DNA from: an uncultured Opitutia bacterium | GTDB taxonomy: Bacteria; Verrucomicrobiota; Verrucomicrobiia; Opitutales; Coraliomargaritaceae | NCBI GenBank assembly: GCA_937136395.1 | Contig: CAKZOI010000072.1 | Span: 1-64,000 of the forward strand | Direction of reading: 5' to 3' | Length of the DNA stretch: 64,000 nt | Shown here: in pieces, positions 52,642 through 62,875 of the stretch | Layout: each line of letters opens with the position of its first letter | Position numbering within the stretch: the stretch's first letter is position 1 | The notes under the pieces: model-generated | What the model was told of the DNA's origin: nothing | Databases searched by the model: none | Seen by the model: the letters and a program-made list of their open reading frames with translations, nothing else | Translations under genes and position numbers: made by a program

Positions 52642-53913
52642 CTACTTGATCTTAATCTTGATACCGCGACGCATAAACGTCGGCACATCTAGATCCTCAC
52701 CGTTATATTCATTGCGATCTGTCTTTTCAAAGTAACCGCGCTGCTCATCGTTATCAATAAATGTGAACTCATCTTGGTTCACTTCTAAAGTCTGCTGCTT
52801 CTTTGGTAACTTAGACGAATGCACTGGGCGAGGAGGCTTATCTTCTTTTGAAATCTCTGTTTCAAGCCCCAGCCCTCCTTCTAGTGTCGTTTTTGTGCGA
52901 GCCGTTGCAGTCGCTTTCTCAACCGCTGCAGTCACCTCCATATCAGCCTTACCTAGCACGCAGATCTCCAGACTTTCATGACGGGCTTCATCGATCACAG
53001 CCCCAAAAATTAAATCCTCTCGTGAGCCAAAGCGCTTTGAAACAAGCGACATGATTTCGTTTACTTTGGAAATGCCGAGGTCCGCGCCTCCGATCACGTT
53101 CACGATGATCCGATCTAACTGAGAGGGTCGATCCCCCATATGCAGCAAGGGGCAAATAAATAAATCCTCTAGTGCATTTTTCACATAGTCTGGTCCATTC
53201 GCAGTGCCCGTTCCAAAAACCGTTTTACCTCCACGATCATGAAATACAGAGCGCAAAGAGCCAAAGTCCTGATTGATTAAGCCCGTCTTCAGCAACATCG
53301 CACAAAGAGAATTCACACCTCGGCCAATCCAACGGTCGGCGACCGCAAAGGCCTTTAACACGCTGGTATCTTCCTCCCCCTCTTGTAAGAGCACATCATT
53401 AGGCAACGGGATCATCCCATGAACCAATTGACGCAACTCACCGATACTTTCTTCTGCAATATGCTTACGCCGTGCCCCTTCAAAACTGAATGGCAGCGTC
53501 GCAAACGCGAGCACCAAGGCACCAGTCTTCGCTGCCACTTCAGCCACAACCGAAGCAACTGCACTCCCTGTGCCACCACCTAGCCCAACGATCAAAATGA
53601 TCAGGTCCGTATCGGTAATTAAACGAGCAATCGCATCACGGTCAGCCTCAGCTGCGGCACGACCGATTTCAATTTCACCACCGGCGCCAAGGCCACGAGT
53701 GACGGATCGGCCGATCACAAGCTTCTCAGCGATAGGCGATGCATTCAGTGCTTGTGCATCTGTATTAATCGCAGCGAGACGGACATCACCCAAATCATCC
53801 AATTTGAGACCATCGACCGCGTTCGTACCCGCACCTCCCAATCCGATGATCTTAATCTTAAGATCAGAAGACCCACTACTCTGGCTCAATAGACTCTGTG
53901 TTTCGGTACTCAC
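52642..53913 (-). CDS. ftsZ: FtsZ, tubulin-like division protein with an altered T7 loop
   Basis: 423 residues. GTP-binding motifs: [12 protein letters not shown] (23-34) and the tubulin signature GGGTGSA (112-118; usually GGGTGTG). The T7 synergy loop reads [14 protein letters not shown] (211-224): Asn214 and Asp216 are kept, but the second acidic residue (Asp212 in E. coli) is Ser219. The C-terminal tail DVPTFMRRG matches the FtsA-binding peptide, followed by IKIKIK. A Lys/Glu-rich linker of about 60 residues precedes it. FtsZ forms the Z-ring. It is the last gene of the dcw cluster, 6 bp after ftsA. Confidence 0.97.
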
Positions 53914-53919
53914 GTGTGT

Positions 53920-55131
53920 TCAAATATTTAAGAGACCACTAATTTTGCGTAGAAAGCTCGAGGGCTTTGCCATTTCTTGGGAAGCATCTTGCCCAGTTAA
54001 TGCATAATGCAATAACCCAAGAACAGTGCTATACTCAGGCTGACGCAGTTCTTCGGCGACATCAACAGAACCCTCTGAAACGGTCGCATCCAATCCGAGG
54101 CAACGCTTTGCAACTTCATCAATTCCTGCTAAGCGAGCACTTCCCCCTGTTAAAACAATACCCGATGCAATATCCATTGGTTCCAAGAGTTCCGCGACCT
54201 CAAGTTCAGCTTTGATAATATCAAAGATTTCGGAAACTCGCGCTTCGATAATCTTCGTTATCGCTGCTAAAGGGTACTCTCGATCACCAATAGTCAGATC
54301 GCCAATAGTCCAGACCTTCTCGTCCTTGTCTCCGGTCTGATAATAAGCACGTCCATGCTTGACTTTGAAATCTTCTGCACTCTTACGACCGACCCTTAAT
54401 CCAATACTCAAATCGTTGGTAATGTGATCGCCGCCAACAGGCACAACACCTGTTTTTACGATATAACCTTTTCGATACAGCACATAGTCTGTGGTGCCTC
54501 CGCCAATATCGACTACGAGCGCACCGTTTTCTTTCTCTGAATCCTGCAGCAGCACGGCACCCGAGGCGATACTGGAGATAACCATATCACTCACATCTAA
54601 ATCAATACCACGGATCACTCTTAAACTATCACTGACGATATCGCTATCTCCATGCACCGACCAATAACCGACCTGTAAACGGCGGCCTTCGCGCGACAAC
54701 GGGTTCTCAACCAGCTGGTCATCCACTGAAAATGGATTTTGAATATGGTGAATATACGTGCGCGTATTCGGAAGTTTTCGGCGTTTGGCATCTGCTTTGG
54801 CCGCATCGATATCGACACTGCGAATCACCCCATCCGGAGCGCTTACATTTGTCGTGCCGACGTTAAAATTTCCGATTAGATGACTGCCCGTCTGAGCGAG
54901 AAATACTTCGTCGATACGAGAATTGGAATTTTTCTCGGCGGCCATAATGGCTGCATGCACACAGTCACTCGCCGCATTCAAATCAGTGACCACACCTTTT
55001 TTTACACCTTTCGAAGAGCTCGCGCTATGACCGATAATGTTTAGCCCAGATTCACCGACAATCTCGCCTAGCAAGACCGCCACCTTGGACGTCCCGATCT
55101 CGACTGCACCAACTACTCTAGAATGACTCAT
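53920..55131 (-). CDS. ftsA: FtsA, actin-like Z-ring membrane tether
   Basis: 403 residues. Actin-fold motifs: [18 protein letters not shown] (phosphate 1), the 1C insertion region [20 protein letters not shown], phosphate 2 [20 protein letters not shown] and adenosine motif [20 protein letters not shown]-terminal amphipathic helix ([13 protein letters not shown]) would bind the membrane. FtsA anchors FtsZ. The order ftsQ-ftsA-ftsZ is the classic one, though a 122-bp gap separates ftsQ from ftsA here. Confidence 0.96.
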
Positions 55132-55253: not shown

Positions 55254-56189
55254 CTAAAATGTTCCGACTCGACCACTACTAAACTGCACCGCAGCAGAGC
55301 CGCGTAAAGAAAGATCGATACGCTCGATAGATGGATTTCCACGCTGTTGCACATATGACAAAATGTAGCTCAAACGATCCAATTGCTGGCCGTAGTCGGC
55401 CCCCGCACTGAAAATAATACGTGGCACCCAAGTTGAGCGCACTTCAATAATCTGCCCTGGGAGCTCCAAATCCCCAGTATAATGCTCAAGCGAGACGACT
55501 TGCCAAGTGTTGAACAACTTCGGATTATTCTGCCGAGCGTAATCGAGTAAATCAGCCACACGATCAATCCCGCGCATTGGTAAATACTTTCCTTCTGAAC
55601 TCAGATACGGCTGCACAAATGGTAGATTTTTCAACATCGACTTCGGATACCCCACGCCTGCGTAAATCGTGCCATCTCTGGCAACTAATTTAAGCAAACG
55701 AGTGTCATTCGGTCCAGCCACCGCAAGTCGTAATGATGGGATACGCTCCTCAATCGAAATCTTTAAATCACTCGGGAAGATTCGCGCCACCGAAGCAGAT
55801 TTCACCTGCCCTTGCGCTTCTAAATCTGCCTTCAAAGAGTGAATATCCGCTTCCATTAATGACATCCCCGCATGCAGCTCAACAACTGTGCCCAACCAAT
55901 TATTCGGAAGCACCCCATCGGTCTCAAAAAGAATACGTTCAATCGGCTTTGAGGGTGTCGAAATCTGAATAGCTTCATCTCGATCCTTTAGCGCAGACAC
56001 GCTCACTACAATCGCAGCGACAACAACAATCACCAACAAAAGCAACCCCAGCAATTTTAGCAGTTTTTGTTGACGACGTTTACGAGCCTGAGGCGAATTA
56101 ATCCGCTTCTTACGAGGCCCCGCCAGCTCACGCCAACTTTGCTCCCCACTCGCAGCCGTGCTGCCTTTATCTTTGCCTGATCCGATCAT
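55254..56189 (-). CDS. ftsQ: FtsQ/DivIB-type division protein
   Basis: 311 residues: a basic cytoplasmic N-terminus (about 45 residues, PRKKRINSPQARKRRQQKLL), one membrane helix (LLGLLLLVIVVVAAIVVSVS) and a periplasmic POTRA-like domain. A beta domain follows (VARIFPSDLKISIEERIPSL; ELPGQIIEVRSTWVPRII) and ends with FSSGRVGTF. FtsQ bridges early and late divisome parts. Identity is weak as usual for FtsQ, but position between ddl and ftsA and topology fix the call. Confidence 0.9.
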   Translation of the reverse strand: MIGSGKDKGSTAASGEQSWRELAGPRKKRINSPQARKRRQQKLLKLLGLLLLVIVVVAAIVVSVSALKDRDEAIQISTPSKPIERILFETDGVLPNNWLGTVVELHAGMSLMEADIHSLKADLEAQGQVKSASVARIFPSDLKISIEERIPSLRLAVAGPNDTRLLKLVARDGTIYAGVGYPKSMLKNLPFVQPYLSSEGKYLPMRGIDRVADLLDYARQNNPKLFNTWQVVSLEHYTGDLELPGQIIEVRSTWVPRIIFSAGADYGQQLDRLSYILSYVQQRGNPSIERIDLSLRGSAAVQFSSGRVGTF

Positions 56190-56191
56190 TC

Positions 56192-57124
56192 TTAAGTTTG
56201 TCTACTTCCGTTCACTTGAAAGCGCTCAATTGCAGGGGTCACCAACTCATTGGCAAGTTCCTCAAACCCTAAACCGACACAGGAAGCACTTTTAGGTAAT
56301 AAACTCGTCGCAGTCAGACCAGGCAAGGTATTGATCTCTAAAAAATAAGGTATCTGATCTTCCAATAAAAAATCGATACGTGCAAAATCGCGACAACCAC
56401 ATGCCGAAAACAATCGCTCAGCAGAGTCTTTTATTTGCGCCTCTAAATCAGAGTCCAATTCTGCGGGGAATCTATAGTCCGTAGACCCTGGAGTATACTT
56501 CGCCTTAAAATCATAAACACCAGAAGCACTGACGATCTCAACGATCCCCATGGCTTTACCTTGCAATATACCAACCGTCAATTCACGCCCTTGAATACGC
56601 TGTTCAATGAGCCAATTTCCTTCATGAATTTGCGAAAGCGTCACACCGAGTGCCGAGCGATGCTCAGTAAAATGCAGCCCCACACTACTCCCTTCATCTG
56701 CTGGCTTAATAACCAAAGAGCTGCCGAGTTCATCAATCACATCATCTGCCAATGGAGAGGCATCACCTTTAAAAACCATTCCTTTCGGTGAACGCACACC
56801 AATGGAAGTCGCCATCGCTTTGGCCCGATCCTTCAACATACAGAGTCGGCTCGCTTCAGCGTCACTCCCACAGCAAACAACACCTGCTGCTTCGCAAAGA
56901 GCTTGCAGTTGACCATCTTCACCAAACGCACCGTGCAAAGCTGGAAATACGATTGATCGACGACCATCAATCTCAGCTGGCAGCTCATTCTGATCTAAAC
57001 GAAGTAAGTCTACAGAATGGTTTTCCGACAGAGCCTTAGCGATTGCCTCGCCGCTCACCAACGACACTTCGCGCTCCGAGCCGACACCTCCATAGAGCAC
57101 CACTATAGACTCTAACTTAGACAT
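56192..57124 (-). CDS. ddl: D-alanine--D-alanine ligase
   Basis: 310 residues, an ATP-grasp enzyme that makes the D-Ala-D-Ala end of peptidoglycan precursors. Motifs: VLYGGVGSEREVSLVSG (4-20), IVFPALHGAFGEDGQLQALCE, SLVIKPADEGSSVGLH (ATP site), YTPGSTDYRFPAEL, FARIDFLL, PYFLEINTLPGLTATSLLPK. Its start overlaps the end of the murC-murB gene by 8 bp. Confidence 0.97.
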   Translation of the reverse strand: MSKLESIVVLYGGVGSEREVSLVSGEAIAKALSENHSVDLLRLDQNELPAEIDGRRSIVFPALHGAFGEDGQLQALCEAAGVVCCGSDAEASRLCMLKDRAKAMATSIGVRSPKGMVFKGDASPLADDVIDELGSSLVIKPADEGSSVGLHFTEHRSALGVTLSQIHEGNWLIEQRIQGRELTVGILQGKAMGIVEIVSASGVYDFKAKYTPGSTDYRFPAELDSDLEAQIKDSAERLFSACGCRDFARIDFLLEDQIPYFLEINTLPGLTATSLLPKSASCVGLGFEELANELVTPAIERFQVNGSRQT

Positions 57125-59357
57125 CTTTCGAGGCCTCCATTTGAACTAAATCTTCGCCAAGCACCGAATCCCAAGAAGCACCCACCAGCAGCACCTCTGG
57201 TTCAAGCACATAGCCGGACTTTTCATAGACGGCAGCACGCACTTTACGAACAAGTTCGATCACATCCTTCGAAGTAGCACCTCCCTGATTGACGATAAAA
57301 TTACCATGAATGTCCGATACTTCGGCAGCCCCCACACGCATACCTTTGATTCCATATGTATCTATCAACTTGCCCGCATAATTACCTTCCGGGTTCTTAA
57401 AGATACATCCCGCACTCGGACCTCGCGGTTGACTCCCTTTGCGTGAGCTCGAATAACTATCCATTCGACTGCGAATCGACATCTCCTCTTCGCTCTCTGG
57501 ACTGACTAAGATCGCACCTAAGGCAATCCCACGACTGATTTCCTCGACTTTTCGATAACCAAAGTGAAAGGCATCTTTGGGTAAATCCTGCAGTGTCCCG
57601 TGTTCATCAAGAAACTGCACCCGCTCGACGACATCAAACATCCAGCTACCCATCGCCCCTGCATTCATACGCAGAGCACCACCGACGGCTCCAGGAATGC
57701 CTTCTAAAAACTCAAAACCTGCTAGACCTGCCTTAGCAGCATGCCCGCAAATCTCCTTAAGTCGCCCTCCAGCAGCGGCCCAAATACGCCCATCTGAAAG
57801 CGTCTTCACTGTGCGCCAAGCAGGCGCTGAAAAGCGAATAACCAAACCATCGAAGCCAGAATCGGCCACAAGCAAATTAGATCCTCGACCGAGACAAAAA
57901 GTCTTTAGCCCGAAAAGCTTCGCAGCACGAAGTAAGGCACGCAGATCTGTGAGACTGCTTGGCTCCGCATACATACGTGCCGAACCACCAACGCGCAGGG
58001 TCGTTTTATTCGCCAATGGTTCATCTAATTTCAATACACAAGTCTCTGCGACTCGCCCGTTTAGGTATCCTAGCCATGCACGATTCAAATCACCTCCCGA
58101 ACGTATCCATTCAACAAATACGCCAGCGAAACCATCTAAATCGCCTGCACCTACAAAAACCACAGTAGTCGGCTCTATGGGAAGTGACTGCGTTAGCTGT
58201 TGCACGCCTTTGACATCCATCGACAAGCAGTCAGGCTGATTCACTCTAAATGCGGCAACTAAATCATCCAGCACCCCACCAGCTTGCTCCGATTCGTGTG
58301 CCGCATAGACTGGCAATAGAAACAAAGCATCCGCACCTCCGAGACTATCGGCAAAACCCTGCTTAAACTGCTTTGTTCGCGAATAACGATGCGGTTGAAA
58401 AACCACAACTAAACGATCTTCAGGAGCTGTCCGACGCAACGAACTCAGCAGAGCTTCTATCTCAGTCGGATGGTGCGCATAATCCTCAACCACTTTCAAC
58501 CGCTCACTCTTGAACAAGCAAGTCTGGCGGCGTGCAATTCCAGAAAAGTCATCGATAATGGAAGCATCTACATCAGCGTCTAAAAAGTTGAGCACTGCCG
58601 TCGCCGCCGCGCCATTGGATCGGTTGAAACACGCCTCTGAACTTTCTACAGAAAAGCACTGCATGATCGCGCCTCCAACCTTATCGAAACGTGCTGCCAG
58701 ACCACGCTCACTCGGTAGTAGCACTCGAGACTTTGTCCTTCCGATCAACTGCCGAAAGGCTTCGTCAATCATCGCCTCATTGTAATAACGATCCGCATGA
58801 TCCCAATCAAAATTCAACAACAGAGTCACCTCTGGGCTGAATAAATCTATGGTGCCATCACTCTCGTCAATCTCCGCAACCAACCACTCGCTCTCACTGT
58901 GTTGATAGGGCGCCAAGGATGCGTCATTAAACAACCCTCCTAGAATAAAGTTCACATCCATGCCACGGCTTCGCAGTCCATGGGCGATCATTCCCGTCGT
59001 CGTGGTTTTCCCGTGACTACCCACGACTGCGATCAACTTCTTCGTCTCAGCTAATTCCGCCAGTAGCTCACCACGTCGTAACACTTTGATTCCTCGCTCC
59101 CGAGCCGACTCCAGTAATGGATGAGCTGCTTGAATGGCGCTCGAGTGCACCAGAGTCGAAATACCATCTAGTTGTTCGGCAAAAAACAAATCGCGAATCT
59201 CAACACCAGCATTGTCGAGCATACGTCGCACCGGTTCGCGTAGATGGTCATCGTAACCACAAATACTTGCACCCGATTGCGCGAGCCAACCAGCAAGTGG
59301 AGCCATCCCCATGCCACCAACGCCAAGAAACAAATATGTGCCAGAATCAGGCATCAA
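57117..59357 (-). CDS. murC-murB: Fused MurC-MurB peptidoglycan precursor enzyme
   Basis: 746 residues with two complete enzymes. Residues 1 to about 440: MurC (UDP-MurNAc--L-Ala ligase) with VGGMGMAPLAGWL, the ATP loop GSHGKTTTTGMI, NFDWDHADRYY and DYAHHPTEIEALL. Residues about 450-746: MurB (UDP-enolpyruvyl-GlcNAc reductase, FAD) with KTTLRVGGSARMYAEP, LGRGSNLLVADSG, FLEGIPGAVGGALRMNAGAM and PSAGCIFKNPEGNYAGKLID; the active-site Ser position is Cys, as in many type II MurB. MurB makes MurNAc and MurC uses it, so the fusion joins consecutive steps. Overlaps of 4 bp with murG and 8 bp with ddl indicate coupling. Confidence 0.96.
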   Translation of the reverse strand: MMPDSGTYLFLGVGGMGMAPLAGWLAQSGASICGYDDHLREPVRRMLDNAGVEIRDLFFAEQLDGISTLVHSSAIQAAHPLLESARERGIKVLRRGELLAELAETKKLIAVVGSHGKTTTTGMIAHGLRSRGMDVNFILGGLFNDASLAPYQHSESEWLVAEIDESDGTIDLFSPEVTLLLNFDWDHADRYYNEAMIDEAFRQLIGRTKSRVLLPSERGLAARFDKVGGAIMQCFSVESSEACFNRSNGAAATAVLNFLDADVDASIIDDFSGIARRQTCLFKSERLKVVEDYAHHPTEIEALLSSLRRTAPEDRLVVVFQPHRYSRTKQFKQGFADSLGGADALFLLPVYAAHESEQAGGVLDDLVAAFRVNQPDCLSMDVKGVQQLTQSLPIEPTTVVFVGAGDLDGFAGVFVEWIRSGGDLNRAWLGYLNGRVAETCVLKLDEPLANKTTLRVGGSARMYAEPSSLTDLRALLRAAKLFGLKTFCLGRGSNLLVADSGFDGLVIRFSAPAWRTVKTLSDGRIWAAAGGRLKEICGHAAKAGLAGFEFLEGIPGAVGGALRMNAGAMGSWMFDVVERVQFLDEHGTLQDLPKDAFHFGYRKVEEISRGIALGAILVSPESEEEMSIRSRMDSYSSSRKGSQPRGPSAGCIFKNPEGNYAGKLIDTYGIKGMRVGAAEVSDIHGNFIVNQGGATSKDVIELVRKVRAAVYEKSGYVLEPEVLLVGASWDSVLGEDLVQMEASKDV

Positions 59358-60481
59358 ATAGCAGACTCCAATCTATCGACTCGAGCAAGTTCGCCAGCAC
59401 GGCAGAGCGCTTCGAGATCCTCCGAGATACATTTACATGAATCAAAGCGATCCAAACGCTCCAGATTGGACTTAAACTTACTCAGTAACCAATCGTTAAA
59501 AATTAAGTCGATCACCTCATTTGCAAGCGTATCAATAGTGGATTGATCAAGCACTAATCCAGCACCGTTTTGCTCATGCATTCGGGCATTTGCTTCTTGA
59601 TGATTATCCGCCGCATACGGATATGGAATCAAGATTGACGGCGCACGACAGCGCACAAGCTCTGCAATCGCTCCCGCACCTGCGCGCGAGACAACCAGGT
59701 CCGCAGCTGAAATCACATCTCCCATACGATCCGAAAAAGGAACTAAGGTTGCGGTGATGTCCTCCCCGTTGCGATCAATCTCATGTATCGTGCTCTTAGA
59801 ACTCTTCCCTAAGCCAGTTACACAATAGATGCTCACTCCAACCTTCGCCATCTGTTCAAAATTGCTGATCACCCAATCATTCAGTGCCGAAGCCCCTTGG
59901 CTACCTCCAATAACCACGAGCAATTTATGTGGCACCTTGATTTCAAGATTTCGAGCCGCATTCGCCTTTAATACATGCTTAATATCTTGGCGCACGGGGT
60001 AGCCCATATACCTCACACGTGATGGAGGAATCCCTTTCATGCGCACCCCATCGGGAAGATAAATTCGAGTCGCCAAACGCTTGATTAAACGAATTGACTT
60101 ACCTGGATGGCAATTCGCTTCATGCAATGCAATCGGCACTCCTATGATCCGCGCCGCAACGCCTAAGCCTACCGAAAGGAAGCCCCCGAAAAGTAAAACG
60201 ATATCGGGGTCTTGTTGTTGAATCAGTTTTCGTGAAAATAAGTAGCCTGAAAACAAACTCCAAGCTGAAGCAAAACGGGCTAAAATCCCTCCAGAAAAAG
60301 CACGTCCCGGAGTTTTGATAAAATTAAGATGCTCATACTTAGCAATGAGCGCAGAATCCACCTGTTTCTTGCTAATCAAGAGGCGACAATCATGACCATT
60401 CGCTTGCAAGGCTTCAGCAACTGCAATCCCTGGAGCAAGATGCCCACCGGTCCCGCCACATGCGATGAGTATCTTGCTCAT
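59354..60481 (-). CDS. murG: MurG, lipid II-forming GlcNAc transferase
   Basis: 375 residues from the ATG at 60481, which overlaps the ftsW stop (ATGA). A longer frame to 60622 would run inside ftsW. Motifs: ILIACGGTGGHLAPGIAVAEAL (start), DIVLLFGGFLSVG, IALHEANCHPG, VIGGSQGASALNDWV, AADLVVSRAGAGAIAELV and PSILIPYPYAADNHQEANA. The UDP-GlcNAc site is typical of GT28. It adds GlcNAc to lipid I on the inner membrane's cytoplasmic face. Confidence 0.97.
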   Translation of the reverse strand: MSKILIACGGTGGHLAPGIAVAEALQANGHDCRLLISKKQVDSALIAKYEHLNFIKTPGRAFSGGILARFASAWSLFSGYLFSRKLIQQQDPDIVLLFGGFLSVGLGVAARIIGVPIALHEANCHPGKSIRLIKRLATRIYLPDGVRMKGIPPSRVRYMGYPVRQDIKHVLKANAARNLEIKVPHKLLVVIGGSQGASALNDWVISNFEQMAKVGVSIYCVTGLGKSSKSTIHEIDRNGEDITATLVPFSDRMGDVISAADLVVSRAGAGAIAELVRCRAPSILIPYPYAADNHQEANARMHEQNGAGLVLDQSTIDTLANEVIDLIFNDWLLSKFKSNLERLDRFDSCKCISEDLEALCRAGELARVDRLESAI

Positions 60482-61620
60482 AAGTCGCGCTGCCCTCCTA
60501 GCGCAGGCATCTCCCACGAACGGAAGCCATTTAAAATAATCCCTACAAGCACGAACATAAATACCAAATTGGAGCCTCCATACGAAATGAACGGCAACGA
60601 CATACCCTTTGTTGGCAGGCACCCAGTAACCACGCCAATATTGATCAGCGCTTGAAAAGTGATAAAGAGCAAGGCCCCCATAACTAACAGGTATTGATAC
60701 AAATTAGGCGCACGCTTGAGTTGCAGCACGCCAATAAAAAAGAGGATCATATACAAGACCACCACCCCTGCAGTAAACTGCAGACCGAGTTCTTCGCCTA
60801 CAATAGCGAAGATAAAGTCTGTATGCGCTTCTGGCAGGAAGGACATTTGCTGGCGCCCCGAACCTAAACCAACACCATGCAAGCCTCCGGCGCCAAATGC
60901 CAAGATCCCTTGCCACAATTGATACGAGCTATCACTGCGGTTACCTTCAACGTCTAAAAACGAAGTAATGCGCTTCAGGCGCACAGGATCGTGGTAGACA
61001 GCAACTGAAAACACAGTCAGTGCAACGATGGCAGTCGGAATCAGAAATTTCAAACGCACGCCTGCTAAAAACATCATACAGCCACCCACCAAACCACACA
61101 GGAAAGCGGTTCCAAAATCGGGCTCAATAATAATTAAACCACAGATCACGGCGAGGATACCGCAGGGCACTAAATAGCCTTTCACAACATCATCTAGAAA
61201 ACGCCGATGCATCGCCAAATAATGCGCCATCACAAATAAGAGGCCTAGTTTACCGATCTCTGAGACCTGCAAGCGCATCGGGCCGAAATCCATCCACCGT
61301 TGCGCACCATTCACGCGCACACCAATACCGGGTATCAGAACCAAGACGAGCATAAGAACCGCCCCACCTGCCAAGATGAAGGCATAAGGCCTTAAGGCCT
61401 CGAGGCTCACAATCATCGTAAATGCACCTGCAAGCGTCGCTACAACTAACCAGATGGACTGCTTTCGCAAAAGCACTGTGGGGTCGTCGTGTATGGCACG
61501 AGACGCACTGAACAAAATGACGAGCCCTAAAAATGTGAGCGATATCACAATCAGCCCCATGAACACCCCTGCAGGCGGGATTCGCCATGAGGAAATTCTT
61601 GAGACCATTCGGGCGCTCAT
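60478..61620 (-). CDS. ftsW: FtsW, SEDS-family septal peptidoglycan polymerase
   Basis: 380 residues, about ten membrane helices. SEDS signatures: GVRVNGAQRWMDFGPMRLQVSEIGKLG, IIEPDFGTAFLCGLVGG, AFGAGGLHGVGLGSGRQQMSFLPEAHTDFIFAIVGEELG and GCLPTKGMSLPFISYGGSNL. FtsW polymerises lipid II at the septum with its transpeptidase partner, which is not in this window. Starts 40 bp after the LysM gene and overlaps murG by 4 bp. Confidence 0.97.
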   Translation of the reverse strand: MSARMVSRISSWRIPPAGVFMGLIVISLTFLGLVILFSASRAIHDDPTVLLRKQSIWLVVATLAGAFTMIVSLEALRPYAFILAGGAVLMLVLVLIPGIGVRVNGAQRWMDFGPMRLQVSEIGKLGLLFVMAHYLAMHRRFLDDVVKGYLVPCGILAVICGLIIIEPDFGTAFLCGLVGGCMMFLAGVRLKFLIPTAIVALTVFSVAVYHDPVRLKRITSFLDVEGNRSDSSYQLWQGILAFGAGGLHGVGLGSGRQQMSFLPEAHTDFIFAIVGEELGLQFTAGVVVLYMILFFIGVLQLKRAPNLYQYLLVMGALLFITFQALINIGVVTGCLPTKGMSLPFISYGGSNLVFMFVLVGIILNGFRSWEMPALGGQRDL

Positions 61621-61660: not shown

Positions 61661-62875
61661 TTACTCTTCCAAACGAATGACTGGAATTTCAACAACGCCT
61701 TCAAATTCTTTATCTACATCTACAATGTCGTTTTCGCTAGCTGCTGTAGCGTCTACGTCAATAATAGGGTCTGCCTCGACAACACGAATTTCGTCGGGGC
61801 CATCGGCAGCTACAGGAGCTGGAGTCGACGGTGAACCAAATACTGACGGTGTAAAAGTCGTTGTTGGAGCAGCAACTGTTTCAGTCTTTGTGTCGACATT
61901 TGAAGCCGCACCCGAAGCACTGACTTGCAAAACTTGACCGATCTGAAGTTTGCGAGGATCGGTAATCCCATTCAAGGCCAACAGCTCACCAGAAGTCATC
62001 CCATACTTACGAGCAATGGTTGCAGGATACTCACCAGCTTTAACTGTATGCGTGCGCCCTGAACCAATCGCTGCTGGCGCAACCGTTGTCACCGAGGTCG
62101 TCGGTGCTGGTTTCGGAGCGACGGAAGAACTCGACGTTGATGACGTGCTGCCAGCATCAGGAATGACTAATGTTTCACCAACTCGAATCATATCGGATGT
62201 TTTGCTGTTGGCAGCCTTAATTGCGCCAACGGTGGTGCCGTATTGGCTAGCGATTCTCGAAAGCGTATCACCGCGCTTTACAGTGTAAGTCTGTGAGCCG
62301 GTATTGAACGAAGTCGGCTGATAGGCATCTGCTGTTACTGTGCTGACTGTGGCAGAACTTCCTTCGACAGGAATCTGGATTAGCTGACCGATTTTCAAGA
62401 CTGAGTTCTTATTTAAACCGTTGGCCGCATAAAGCTCGTTTAGGGAGACATTATAACGCTTAGAAATTGCCCAGAGGCTGTCGCCTTTTTTGACTGTATA
62501 TGTTTCGAAGGATGGGCCAGCGATATCGACGGATGGAGCCGCCAAATCGGCCGATGGACCTTGTGAAATAATCGGGTCGATCGGTTGCACATTATCAAAT
62601 TCACCAAAATCTTGCGTCGGTGCAAAATCATCGCCTTCAATCCCTGCATTAAACGCAGCATCTAGAGTGGAACCCTGTTCAATACGGGTCGCCTCGATCA
62701 AGCCATCAGAAGTGCGCGCCGCGCCCTTTACATCGCTGCGAATGGTTGATGTGCGATTTTGCTGATAAGTTTGCGTCGGCGGTTGAGTCGTCCGGCACCC
62801 TGGCTGAACAATTAACACGGCGCCTACACCAAGGTGTAAACAGAGAACAAATCCGAAGATTTTAGAAACTTTCAT
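61661..62875 (-). CDS. LysM-repeat lipoprotein within the dcw cluster
   Basis: 404 residues. A hydrophobic signal ends in the lipobox IVQPGC (Cys near 27). Three LysM domains: about 135-180 (YTVKKGDSLWAISKRYNVSL), about 200-245 (YTVKRGDTLSRIASQYGTTV), about 275-320 (HTVKAGEYPATIARKYGMTS). Between them are Ser/Thr/Ala linkers, and the acidic C-terminus has no catalytic domain. It should bind peptidoglycan from the periplasmic side. Its location between murD and ftsW is not part of the usual dcw order and suggests a division-linked cell-wall anchor; this is inference. Confidence 0.88.
   Translation of the reverse strand: MKVSKIFGFVLCLHLGVGAVLIVQPGCRTTQPPTQTYQQNRTSTIRSDVKGAARTSDGLIEATRIEQGSTLDAAFNAGIEGDDFAPTQDFGEFDNVQPIDPIISQGPSADLAAPSVDIAGPSFETYTVKKGDSLWAISKRYNVSLNELYAANGLNKNSVLKIGQLIQIPVEGSSATVSTVTADAYQPTSFNTGSQTYTVKRGDTLSRIASQYGTTVGAIKAANSKTSDMIRVGETLVIPDAGSTSSTSSSSVAPKPAPTTSVTTVAPAAIGSGRTHTVKAGEYPATIARKYGMTSGELLALNGITDPRKLQIGQVLQVSASGAASNVDTKTETVAAPTTTFTPSVFGSPSTPAPVAADGPDEIRVVEADPIIDVDATAASENDIVDVDKEFEGVVEIPVIRLEE

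Follow-up and report, generated by a model that had tools for sequence, protein, structure and literature searches.

The ftsZ locus and its T7 loop

The 64,000-nucleotide stretch of DNA analyzed here (hereafter, the window; contig CAKZOI010000072.1 of assembly GCA_937136395.1, positions 1 to 64,000) comes from an uncultured bacterium of the order Opitutales, phylum Verrucomicrobiota, and carries a gene for the division protein FtsZ (52642..53913; an open reading frame of 423 amino acids with a GTG start). This gene and all the other features described below lie on the minus strand. The T7 loop of the protein, NQDFGS (residues 214-219; 53257..53274), corresponds to N207-D212 (NVDFAD) of Escherichia coli K-12 FtsZ, whose numbering we use for alignment columns. 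The initial annotation, which was concerned with 53248-53283 (residues 211-222), had proposed that serine replaces the catalytic Asp212, and the alignment with the E. coli protein bears this out: Ser219 (codon TCT; 53257..53259) falls on Asp212, and Asp216 (53266..53268) falls on Asp209, the equivalent of Asp210 in Staphylococcus aureus. Thus, whereas the canonical site (NxDFxD) has acids at both 209 and 212, the window FtsZ retains the acid at 209 only, and no other residue of its T7 loop is acidic.

The remainder of the active site is largely conserved. The equivalents of N207, D209, D45, Q47, E138, R142 and N165 are identical to those of E. coli; the counterpart of Arg142 (Arg143 in S. aureus) is Arg149 (53467..53469). 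The T4 loop, which bears the tubulin signature, reads GGGTGSA (residues 112-118; 53560..53580), as annotated, with position 111 occupied by Ala instead of the customary Gly. This Ala is present in 30 of the 31 sequences from the same family in the alignment described below; of the 90 sequences from elsewhere in the order, 79 have Gly. The claim that the rest of the protein is intact therefore holds for the catalytic and pocket residues but has to be tempered for two loops that differ slightly from E. coli, namely T3 (Gly-Glu for Ala72-Asn73) and T4 (Ser-Ala for Thr110-Gly111). The window protein does not belong to the degenerate type that lacks the T4 GTP-binding motif: GGGTG, T1, T2 and the equivalents of N165 and R142 are all in place.

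The product matches PF00091 with 125 bits (cut-off 33) and PF12327 with 41.8 bits (cut-off 27). Its AlphaFold model (mean predicted local distance difference test score, 80.8) aligns with the structures of KpFtsZ (8h1o; VIA-align Z 41.7, over model residues 12-324) and E. coli FtsZ (8gzx; Z 41.0). Two points call for caution. The model is a monomer and so cannot show the subunit interface, and the protein fails the equivalog cut-off of TIGR00065 (256.5 vs 295.2 bits), the sole NCBIfam match in the 19 members of the order that were scanned. Because the same cut-off is missed by 116 of 141 genomes of the class, it evidently does not cover Verrucomicrobiota, and we did not rely on it; the window protein is an FtsZ on the strength of its domains, fold, C-terminal tail and gene order.

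With respect to gene order, ftsZ adjoins ftsA (53920..55131; TIGR01174, 288.5 bits, cut-off 175.85), as the initial annotation had stated, and closes a cluster of division and cell-wall genes that consists of murD, a gene for a LysM protein, ftsW, murG, a murC-murB fusion, ddl, an ftsQ-like gene, ftsA and ftsZ, so that it occupies the position beside ftsA and ftsQ that is expected in a division and cell wall (dcw) cluster. In the part beyond ftsA (55254..61620), ddl and the murB half of the fusion score above a cut-off, the murC half, murG and ftsW match below theirs, and the ftsQ match is weak (19.1 bits). The murC-murB fusion is a single frame of 746 amino acids (57117-59357); such a fusion is reported for Verrucomicrobium spinosum as well (PMC12283558). 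The LysM-type protein is encoded at 61661-62875, between murD and ftsW.

Distribution and history of the T7 acids

We aligned 223 FtsZ sequences (rows) from Verrucomicrobiota with the E. coli protein and read the residues at 209 and 212. We selected the rows manually, for the most part taking one per genus and adding the members of the family that scored best, and the counts accordingly do not represent random samples. The order contributed 121 rows (216 of the 273 genomes searched had a match), and a further 61 rows represent the remaining orders of the class, where 60 of the 114 genomes with a match were used (one genome, G371, supplied two); the other classes of the phylum are represented by 41 rows from 41 of 75 such genomes; repeat loci from the same genome were dropped. 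As controls, we used 68 loci from 67 genomes of other phyla, assigned via the record titles of the centre loci; matches in two further genomes (G497 and G519) yielded no locus.

Loss of the acid at 212 is a trait of the lineage and the rule in the sampled Opitutales rather than a peculiarity of this one protein. In the same family, 30 of 31 rows (the window protein and 29 relatives) have the acid at 209 only, the remaining row being a fragment that could not be aligned here, and the residue at 212 is Ser in 27 and Ala in 3 of them. The same state is shown by 79 of the 90 rows from the remaining families; the 11 exceptions (5 with both acids, 3 with 212 only and 3 with neither) count against the rule. 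Across all 109 rows of the order with the 209 acid alone, position 212 is occupied by Thr (42), Ser (41), Ala (14), His (5), Gln (2) and, once each, Gly, Ile, Tyr, Met and Val. Named relatives identify the order as Opitutales/Puniceicoccales: the 48 best loci by E-value in a named collection (L233-L280) likewise have the acid at 209 only, as does another locus, L286, titled Opitutales. By comparison, both acids are present in all 68 control loci (67 with NxDFxD and one with NxDLxD). Given that no alignable row of the family (0 of 30) has the 212 acid, whereas every control does, neither chance nor sequencing error can account for its absence. An assembly or sequencing artefact, a pseudogene or a paralogue accompanying a normal FtsZ is therefore highly improbable. 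These possibilities are refuted by the family-wide loss, the open frame, the surrounding division cluster and the single match: the search for a second ftsZ that the initial annotation had suggested returned, over the whole genome (106 contigs, 99.96% complete), one PF00091 match and one match with the protein itself.

Beyond the order, the picture changes. The other orders of the class show 36 rows with the acid at 212 only, 16 with both, 6 with 209 only, 2 with neither and 1 that could not be aligned; the corresponding numbers for the other classes are 9, 13, 17, 1 and 1. Among the named loci, two from Pedosphaera keep both acids, and of three named for Chthoniobacter, two have 212 only and one has neither. 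Two loops from a family that is presumably that of V. spinosum (MGLADL and LGLDDL), without the 209 acid and with that at 212, are the mirror image of the window FtsZ. For the phylum as a whole, the totals are 34 rows with both acids, 132 with 209 only, 48 with 212 only, 6 with neither and 3 unalignable. The more telling pattern is that FtsZ of Verrucomicrobiota usually keep one T7 acid or the other.

For the phylogenetic analysis, we constructed a maximum likelihood tree with the T7 columns excluded, retaining one row per genus, dropping rows with more than one quarter gaps and including 8 of the 68 control loci and E. coli. All but one of the 78 rows of the order fall into one clade with the maximum Shimodaira-Hasegawa-like approximate likelihood-ratio support of 100, which indicates that the loss at 212 probably was ancestral, a single event close to or at the root of the order. 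Several features of the tree argue against such a clear-cut history: the clade contains one long-branched row of another order, one long-branched row of Opitutales (L097) falls outside it, and many inner branches are weak (73 of 173 open). The simplest reading is a single ancestral loss followed by a few regains, to which the loops INLDLAD and INLDLGD (two rows of one family) and VSVDFAD (one row of another) would belong. Across the tree, we counted at least 18 changes of state at 212 and at least 15 at 209; these numbers are approximate owing to the uneven inner support and the uncertain placement of the long rows.

The replacement residue itself seems to be under selection. The 27 Ser codons at 212 in the family are TCA (12), TCG (10), TCT (2), AGT (2) and TCC (1), and because an exchange between TCN and AGY requires more than one base change, Ser as such seems to have been retained. 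The ratio of nonsynonymous to synonymous substitution rates was 0.05 and 0.11 in two close pairs of genes and about 0.12 and 0.19 in two wider pairs, values that reveal purifying selection on ftsZ in these pairs; of three pairs within the genus of the window organism, one had a saturated synonymous rate and two were not computable.

The losses of the two acids appear to be coupled. In a two-trait Markov (Mk) test whose root state was set to both acids present, a model with dependent loss rates was better than one with independent rates (likelihood ratio, LR, 22.3), the loss rate of the 209 acid dropping from 0.417 to 0.041 once that at 212 was gone, and the loss rate of the 212 acid from 0.407 to 0.089 once that at 209 was gone. 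Removing nine long rows left an LR of 21.2, and a tree inferred under a different model gave 19.5; in 100 simulations with independent losses, the LR never rose above 11.3, short of the observed value. Two results detract from this inference. An independent-pairs test gave a median p of 0.5, with only 7 and 10 usable pairs, and 6 or fewer rows with neither acid were found in 17 of 100 null simulations, so that the rarity of such rows is not in itself the signal. On the whole, it is likely that FtsZ of Verrucomicrobiota require a minimum of one T7 acid, whether at 209 or at 212, and that they seldom keep both.

Alternatively, the T7 acids might be decaying under relaxed constraint, in a phylum that needs little or no GTP turnover by FtsZ and is moving toward FtsZ-independent division. 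Such a course would fit the divergence of Verrucomicrobiota FtsZ (the TIGR00065 cut-off is exceeded in 25 of the 141 genomes of the class and 11 of the 115 of the phylum, compared to 66 of 66 in the three control phylum samples) and the absence of detectable FtsZ from several small genomes of the order. Nevertheless, we consider it quite unlikely: of the 109 order rows with the 209 acid alone, 97 have Thr, Ser or Ala at 212, Ser is held through synonymous codons in a gene under purifying selection in the tested pairs, the two acids are rarely lost jointly (6 of 220 alignable rows), ftsA and the FtsZ tail are conserved, and in V. spinosum, a relative whose FtsZ is itself divergent, with a long C-terminal part, the ftsZ gene is essential (PMC1845146, PMC12283558).

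Probable GTP hydrolysis with a single T7 acid

The weight that the initial annotation gave to Asp212 agrees with published work, in which substitutions of this residue lower GTPase activity (PMC7320174, PMC8079713). A membrane-targeted E. coli D212G chimera has an almost tenfold lower GTPase activity and forms static rings (PMC7320174), and the equivalent Bacillus subtilis mutant, co-expressed with the wild type, yields thicker, less dynamic rings (PMC8079713). E. coli D212G fails to complement a null mutant unless a rare genomic suppressor arises; two single-step suppressor strains that were sequenced carried one mutation each (PMC5405962), which suggests that only a few steps separate a cell from dividing with an FtsZ of this kind. 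Like the window FtsZ, E. coli D212G and the D213 mutants of S. aureus and B. subtilis lack an acid at this position and keep Asp209/210; unlike the window FtsZ, which is natural, the sole FtsZ of its genome and typical of most of the sampled order, they are laboratory mutants.

In S. aureus filaments, the two acids have been assigned different roles (PMC8936486). Asp210, the equivalent of E. coli Asp209, swings and positions the catalytic water, whereas Asp213, the equivalent of Asp212, is immobile and shapes the site, being water-bridged to Arg143. The window FtsZ has thus kept the mover (Asp216) and the arginine (Arg149) and lost the fixed acid. Because the retained acid is the one that places the catalytic water in S. 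aureus, some hydrolysis by the window protein is likely. A finding from the same work points the other way: D213N alone abolishes assembly of the S. aureus protein (PMC8936486), so that loss of the 212 acid could affect filament formation and not only the rate of hydrolysis.

Taking these lines of evidence into account, we hold with moderate confidence that the window protein is a housekeeping Opitutales FtsZ which lost its 212 acid anciently and hydrolyzes GTP with one T7 acid, probably slowly. Under this model, the acid at 212 was lost in the Opitutales line and has mostly been represented by Thr, Ser or Ala since. Head-to-tail assembly would still take place, and GTP would be hydrolyzed across the interface by the single T7 acid, the Asp209 equivalent, placing the attacking water, with Ser or Thr at 212 presumably leaving space for a water that bridges to the Arg142 equivalent. 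Hydrolysis would probably be slower than in E. coli, resulting in longer-lived filaments whose turnover may lean more on other factors. Slow but real hydrolysis is what we favor by analogy with the mutants; because these are derived from a protein adapted to two acids and the window FtsZ has long had one, its slow turnover is something that we can only infer.

Another group might instead have restored near-normal hydrolysis. The candidate for such compensation, which is unproven, is an acid in the H10-S9 loop, at column 290 (Glu299 in the window protein; 53017..53019). Acids in this column occur in 64 of the 132 rows with the 209 acid only and in none of the 82 that retain the 212 acid (34 with both and 48 with 212 only), with some sign of dependence (Mk LR 13.3, p 0.01), and the backbones of M292 and F294 in S. 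aureus FtsZ join the bridging waters near Arg143 (PMC8936486). At the same time, more than half of the 209-only rows have no acid in column 290, 3 of the 6 rows with neither T7 acid do have one, three rows of one family have Asp one column earlier in a loop of varying length, which makes the column itself uncertain, and the fitted rates lie at their bound, which weakens the LR. The acid in column 290 is therefore at most a partial answer, and full compensation has only a small, if appreciable, chance of being correct. A broader search of the alignment for compensating columns revealed residues specific to the order, none of them evidently at the catalytic water, with the 290 acid as a weak lead. 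A shift of the acid to a neighboring T7 position was rejected: the 209-only rows have no acid at 208 or 213 (0 of 132) and rarely one at 211 (5 of 132); in the group with 212 only, 211 is acidic in 15 of 48 rows. Among the order-specific residues are Trp 188, Lys 222 and Cys 246 (E. coli columns), found in 89, 77 and 87%, respectively, of the order's 71 genus rows with the 209 acid alone and not the leading residues in the controls.

At the other extreme, the Z ring of Opitutales might run on little or no interface GTP hydrolysis, with filaments that are essentially GTP-locked scaffolds and with treadmilling either absent or driven by the tether, the tail and disassembly factors. We regard this as unlikely. 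Were it true, the mirror-image losses would show that FtsZ-based division does not in general depend on the two-acid mechanism of model bacteria. A partial parallel to the window FtsZ is beta-tubulin, whose T7 loop (with Lys254) has no catalytic acid and faces a GTP that is not hydrolyzed, the T7 loop of the heterodimer partner having Glu. Beta-tubulin, however, is one half of a heterodimer, whereas in the window FtsZ the acid is missing at every interface.

Natural FtsZ with unusual properties have been described before. That of Nitrosopumilus maritimus is described as lacking the NVDFAD loop; it also lacks the conserved GTP-binding motif and formed no filaments in a yeast assay (PMC3684127). 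For the window FtsZ, in contrast, the pocket, the tail and ftsA are all present. The FtsZ of Candidatus Thiosymbion oneisti is a natural protein with low GTPase activity (PMC8953583). Verrucomicrobiota FtsZ are already known to be divergent (PMC1845146) and rank among the most divergent (PMC9871819). The titles and opening lines of abstracts among the literature matches listed contained no report of T7 loss in this phylum, although an earlier mention is possible, and the excerpts of PMC1845146, PMC5147048, PMC12283558, PMC9871819, PMC2875224 and PMC9939409 do not discuss such losses.

The debate over whether division requires GTP hydrolysis and treadmilling by FtsZ, and over which residues are catalytic, has drawn mostly on mutants of a handful of model bacteria. 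Evolution, in contrast, has removed a supposedly indispensable aspartate in most of the sampled order and the other one in much of the remainder of the class. The FtsZ motor behind division in Opitutales may accordingly be an altered and possibly slow one. Natural FtsZ with one acid of either kind are now available for measurement, making the role of the hydrolysis rate in division testable in living lineages.

The C-terminal tail and relatives with aberrant or no FtsZ

The C-terminal tail of the window FtsZ (52645..52776) is conserved and extended, running from QDEFTF through a 12-residue peptide of the FtsA-binding type to the last residue. The initial annotation had noted this FtsA-binding tail; the peptide is conserved among members of the order, and its binding to FtsA is putative. 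Judged by eye, an extended tail of about 40 residues that starts roughly with QxxLxL is common to many Verrucomicrobiota FtsZ. When the version found in the order was turned into a strict pattern, 25 of 31 rows of the family, 32 of 90 other rows of the order and 0 of 102 rows from outside it matched.

Sixteen genomes of the order have no PF00091 FtsZ above the cut-off (15 without any match at E 1 and one with a match at 0.065), and TIGR00065, run on 14 of these, gave no match. They are distributed over families f7 (G006, G077, G088), f25 (G025, G043, G058, G073), f27 (G029, G061, G075, G087), f28 (G034), f26 (G044, G059) and f16 (G036, G081). Fourteen of the 16 are 0.8-1.0 Mb in size, and G081 is a single contig of 2.3 Mb. 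Their FtsA matches reach at most 51 bits, are confined to the ATPase core and are MreB-like, except for G059 (212.8 bits) and G081 (none). It is possible that these genomes represent FtsZ-less division inside an FtsZ-bearing order, or else that the assemblies are incomplete.

Elsewhere in the class, four FtsZ-like loci of family f35 (L192, L193, L194 and L227), from near-complete genomes of 2.3-2.5 Mb, have T4 and T7 loops that are hardly recognizable, the T4 loop of L192 reading GGAMGSAGL. We take this family to be perhaps Methylacidiphilum-like. An alternative query has been reported to be required for the detection of FtsZ in Methylacidiphilum (PMC5147048).
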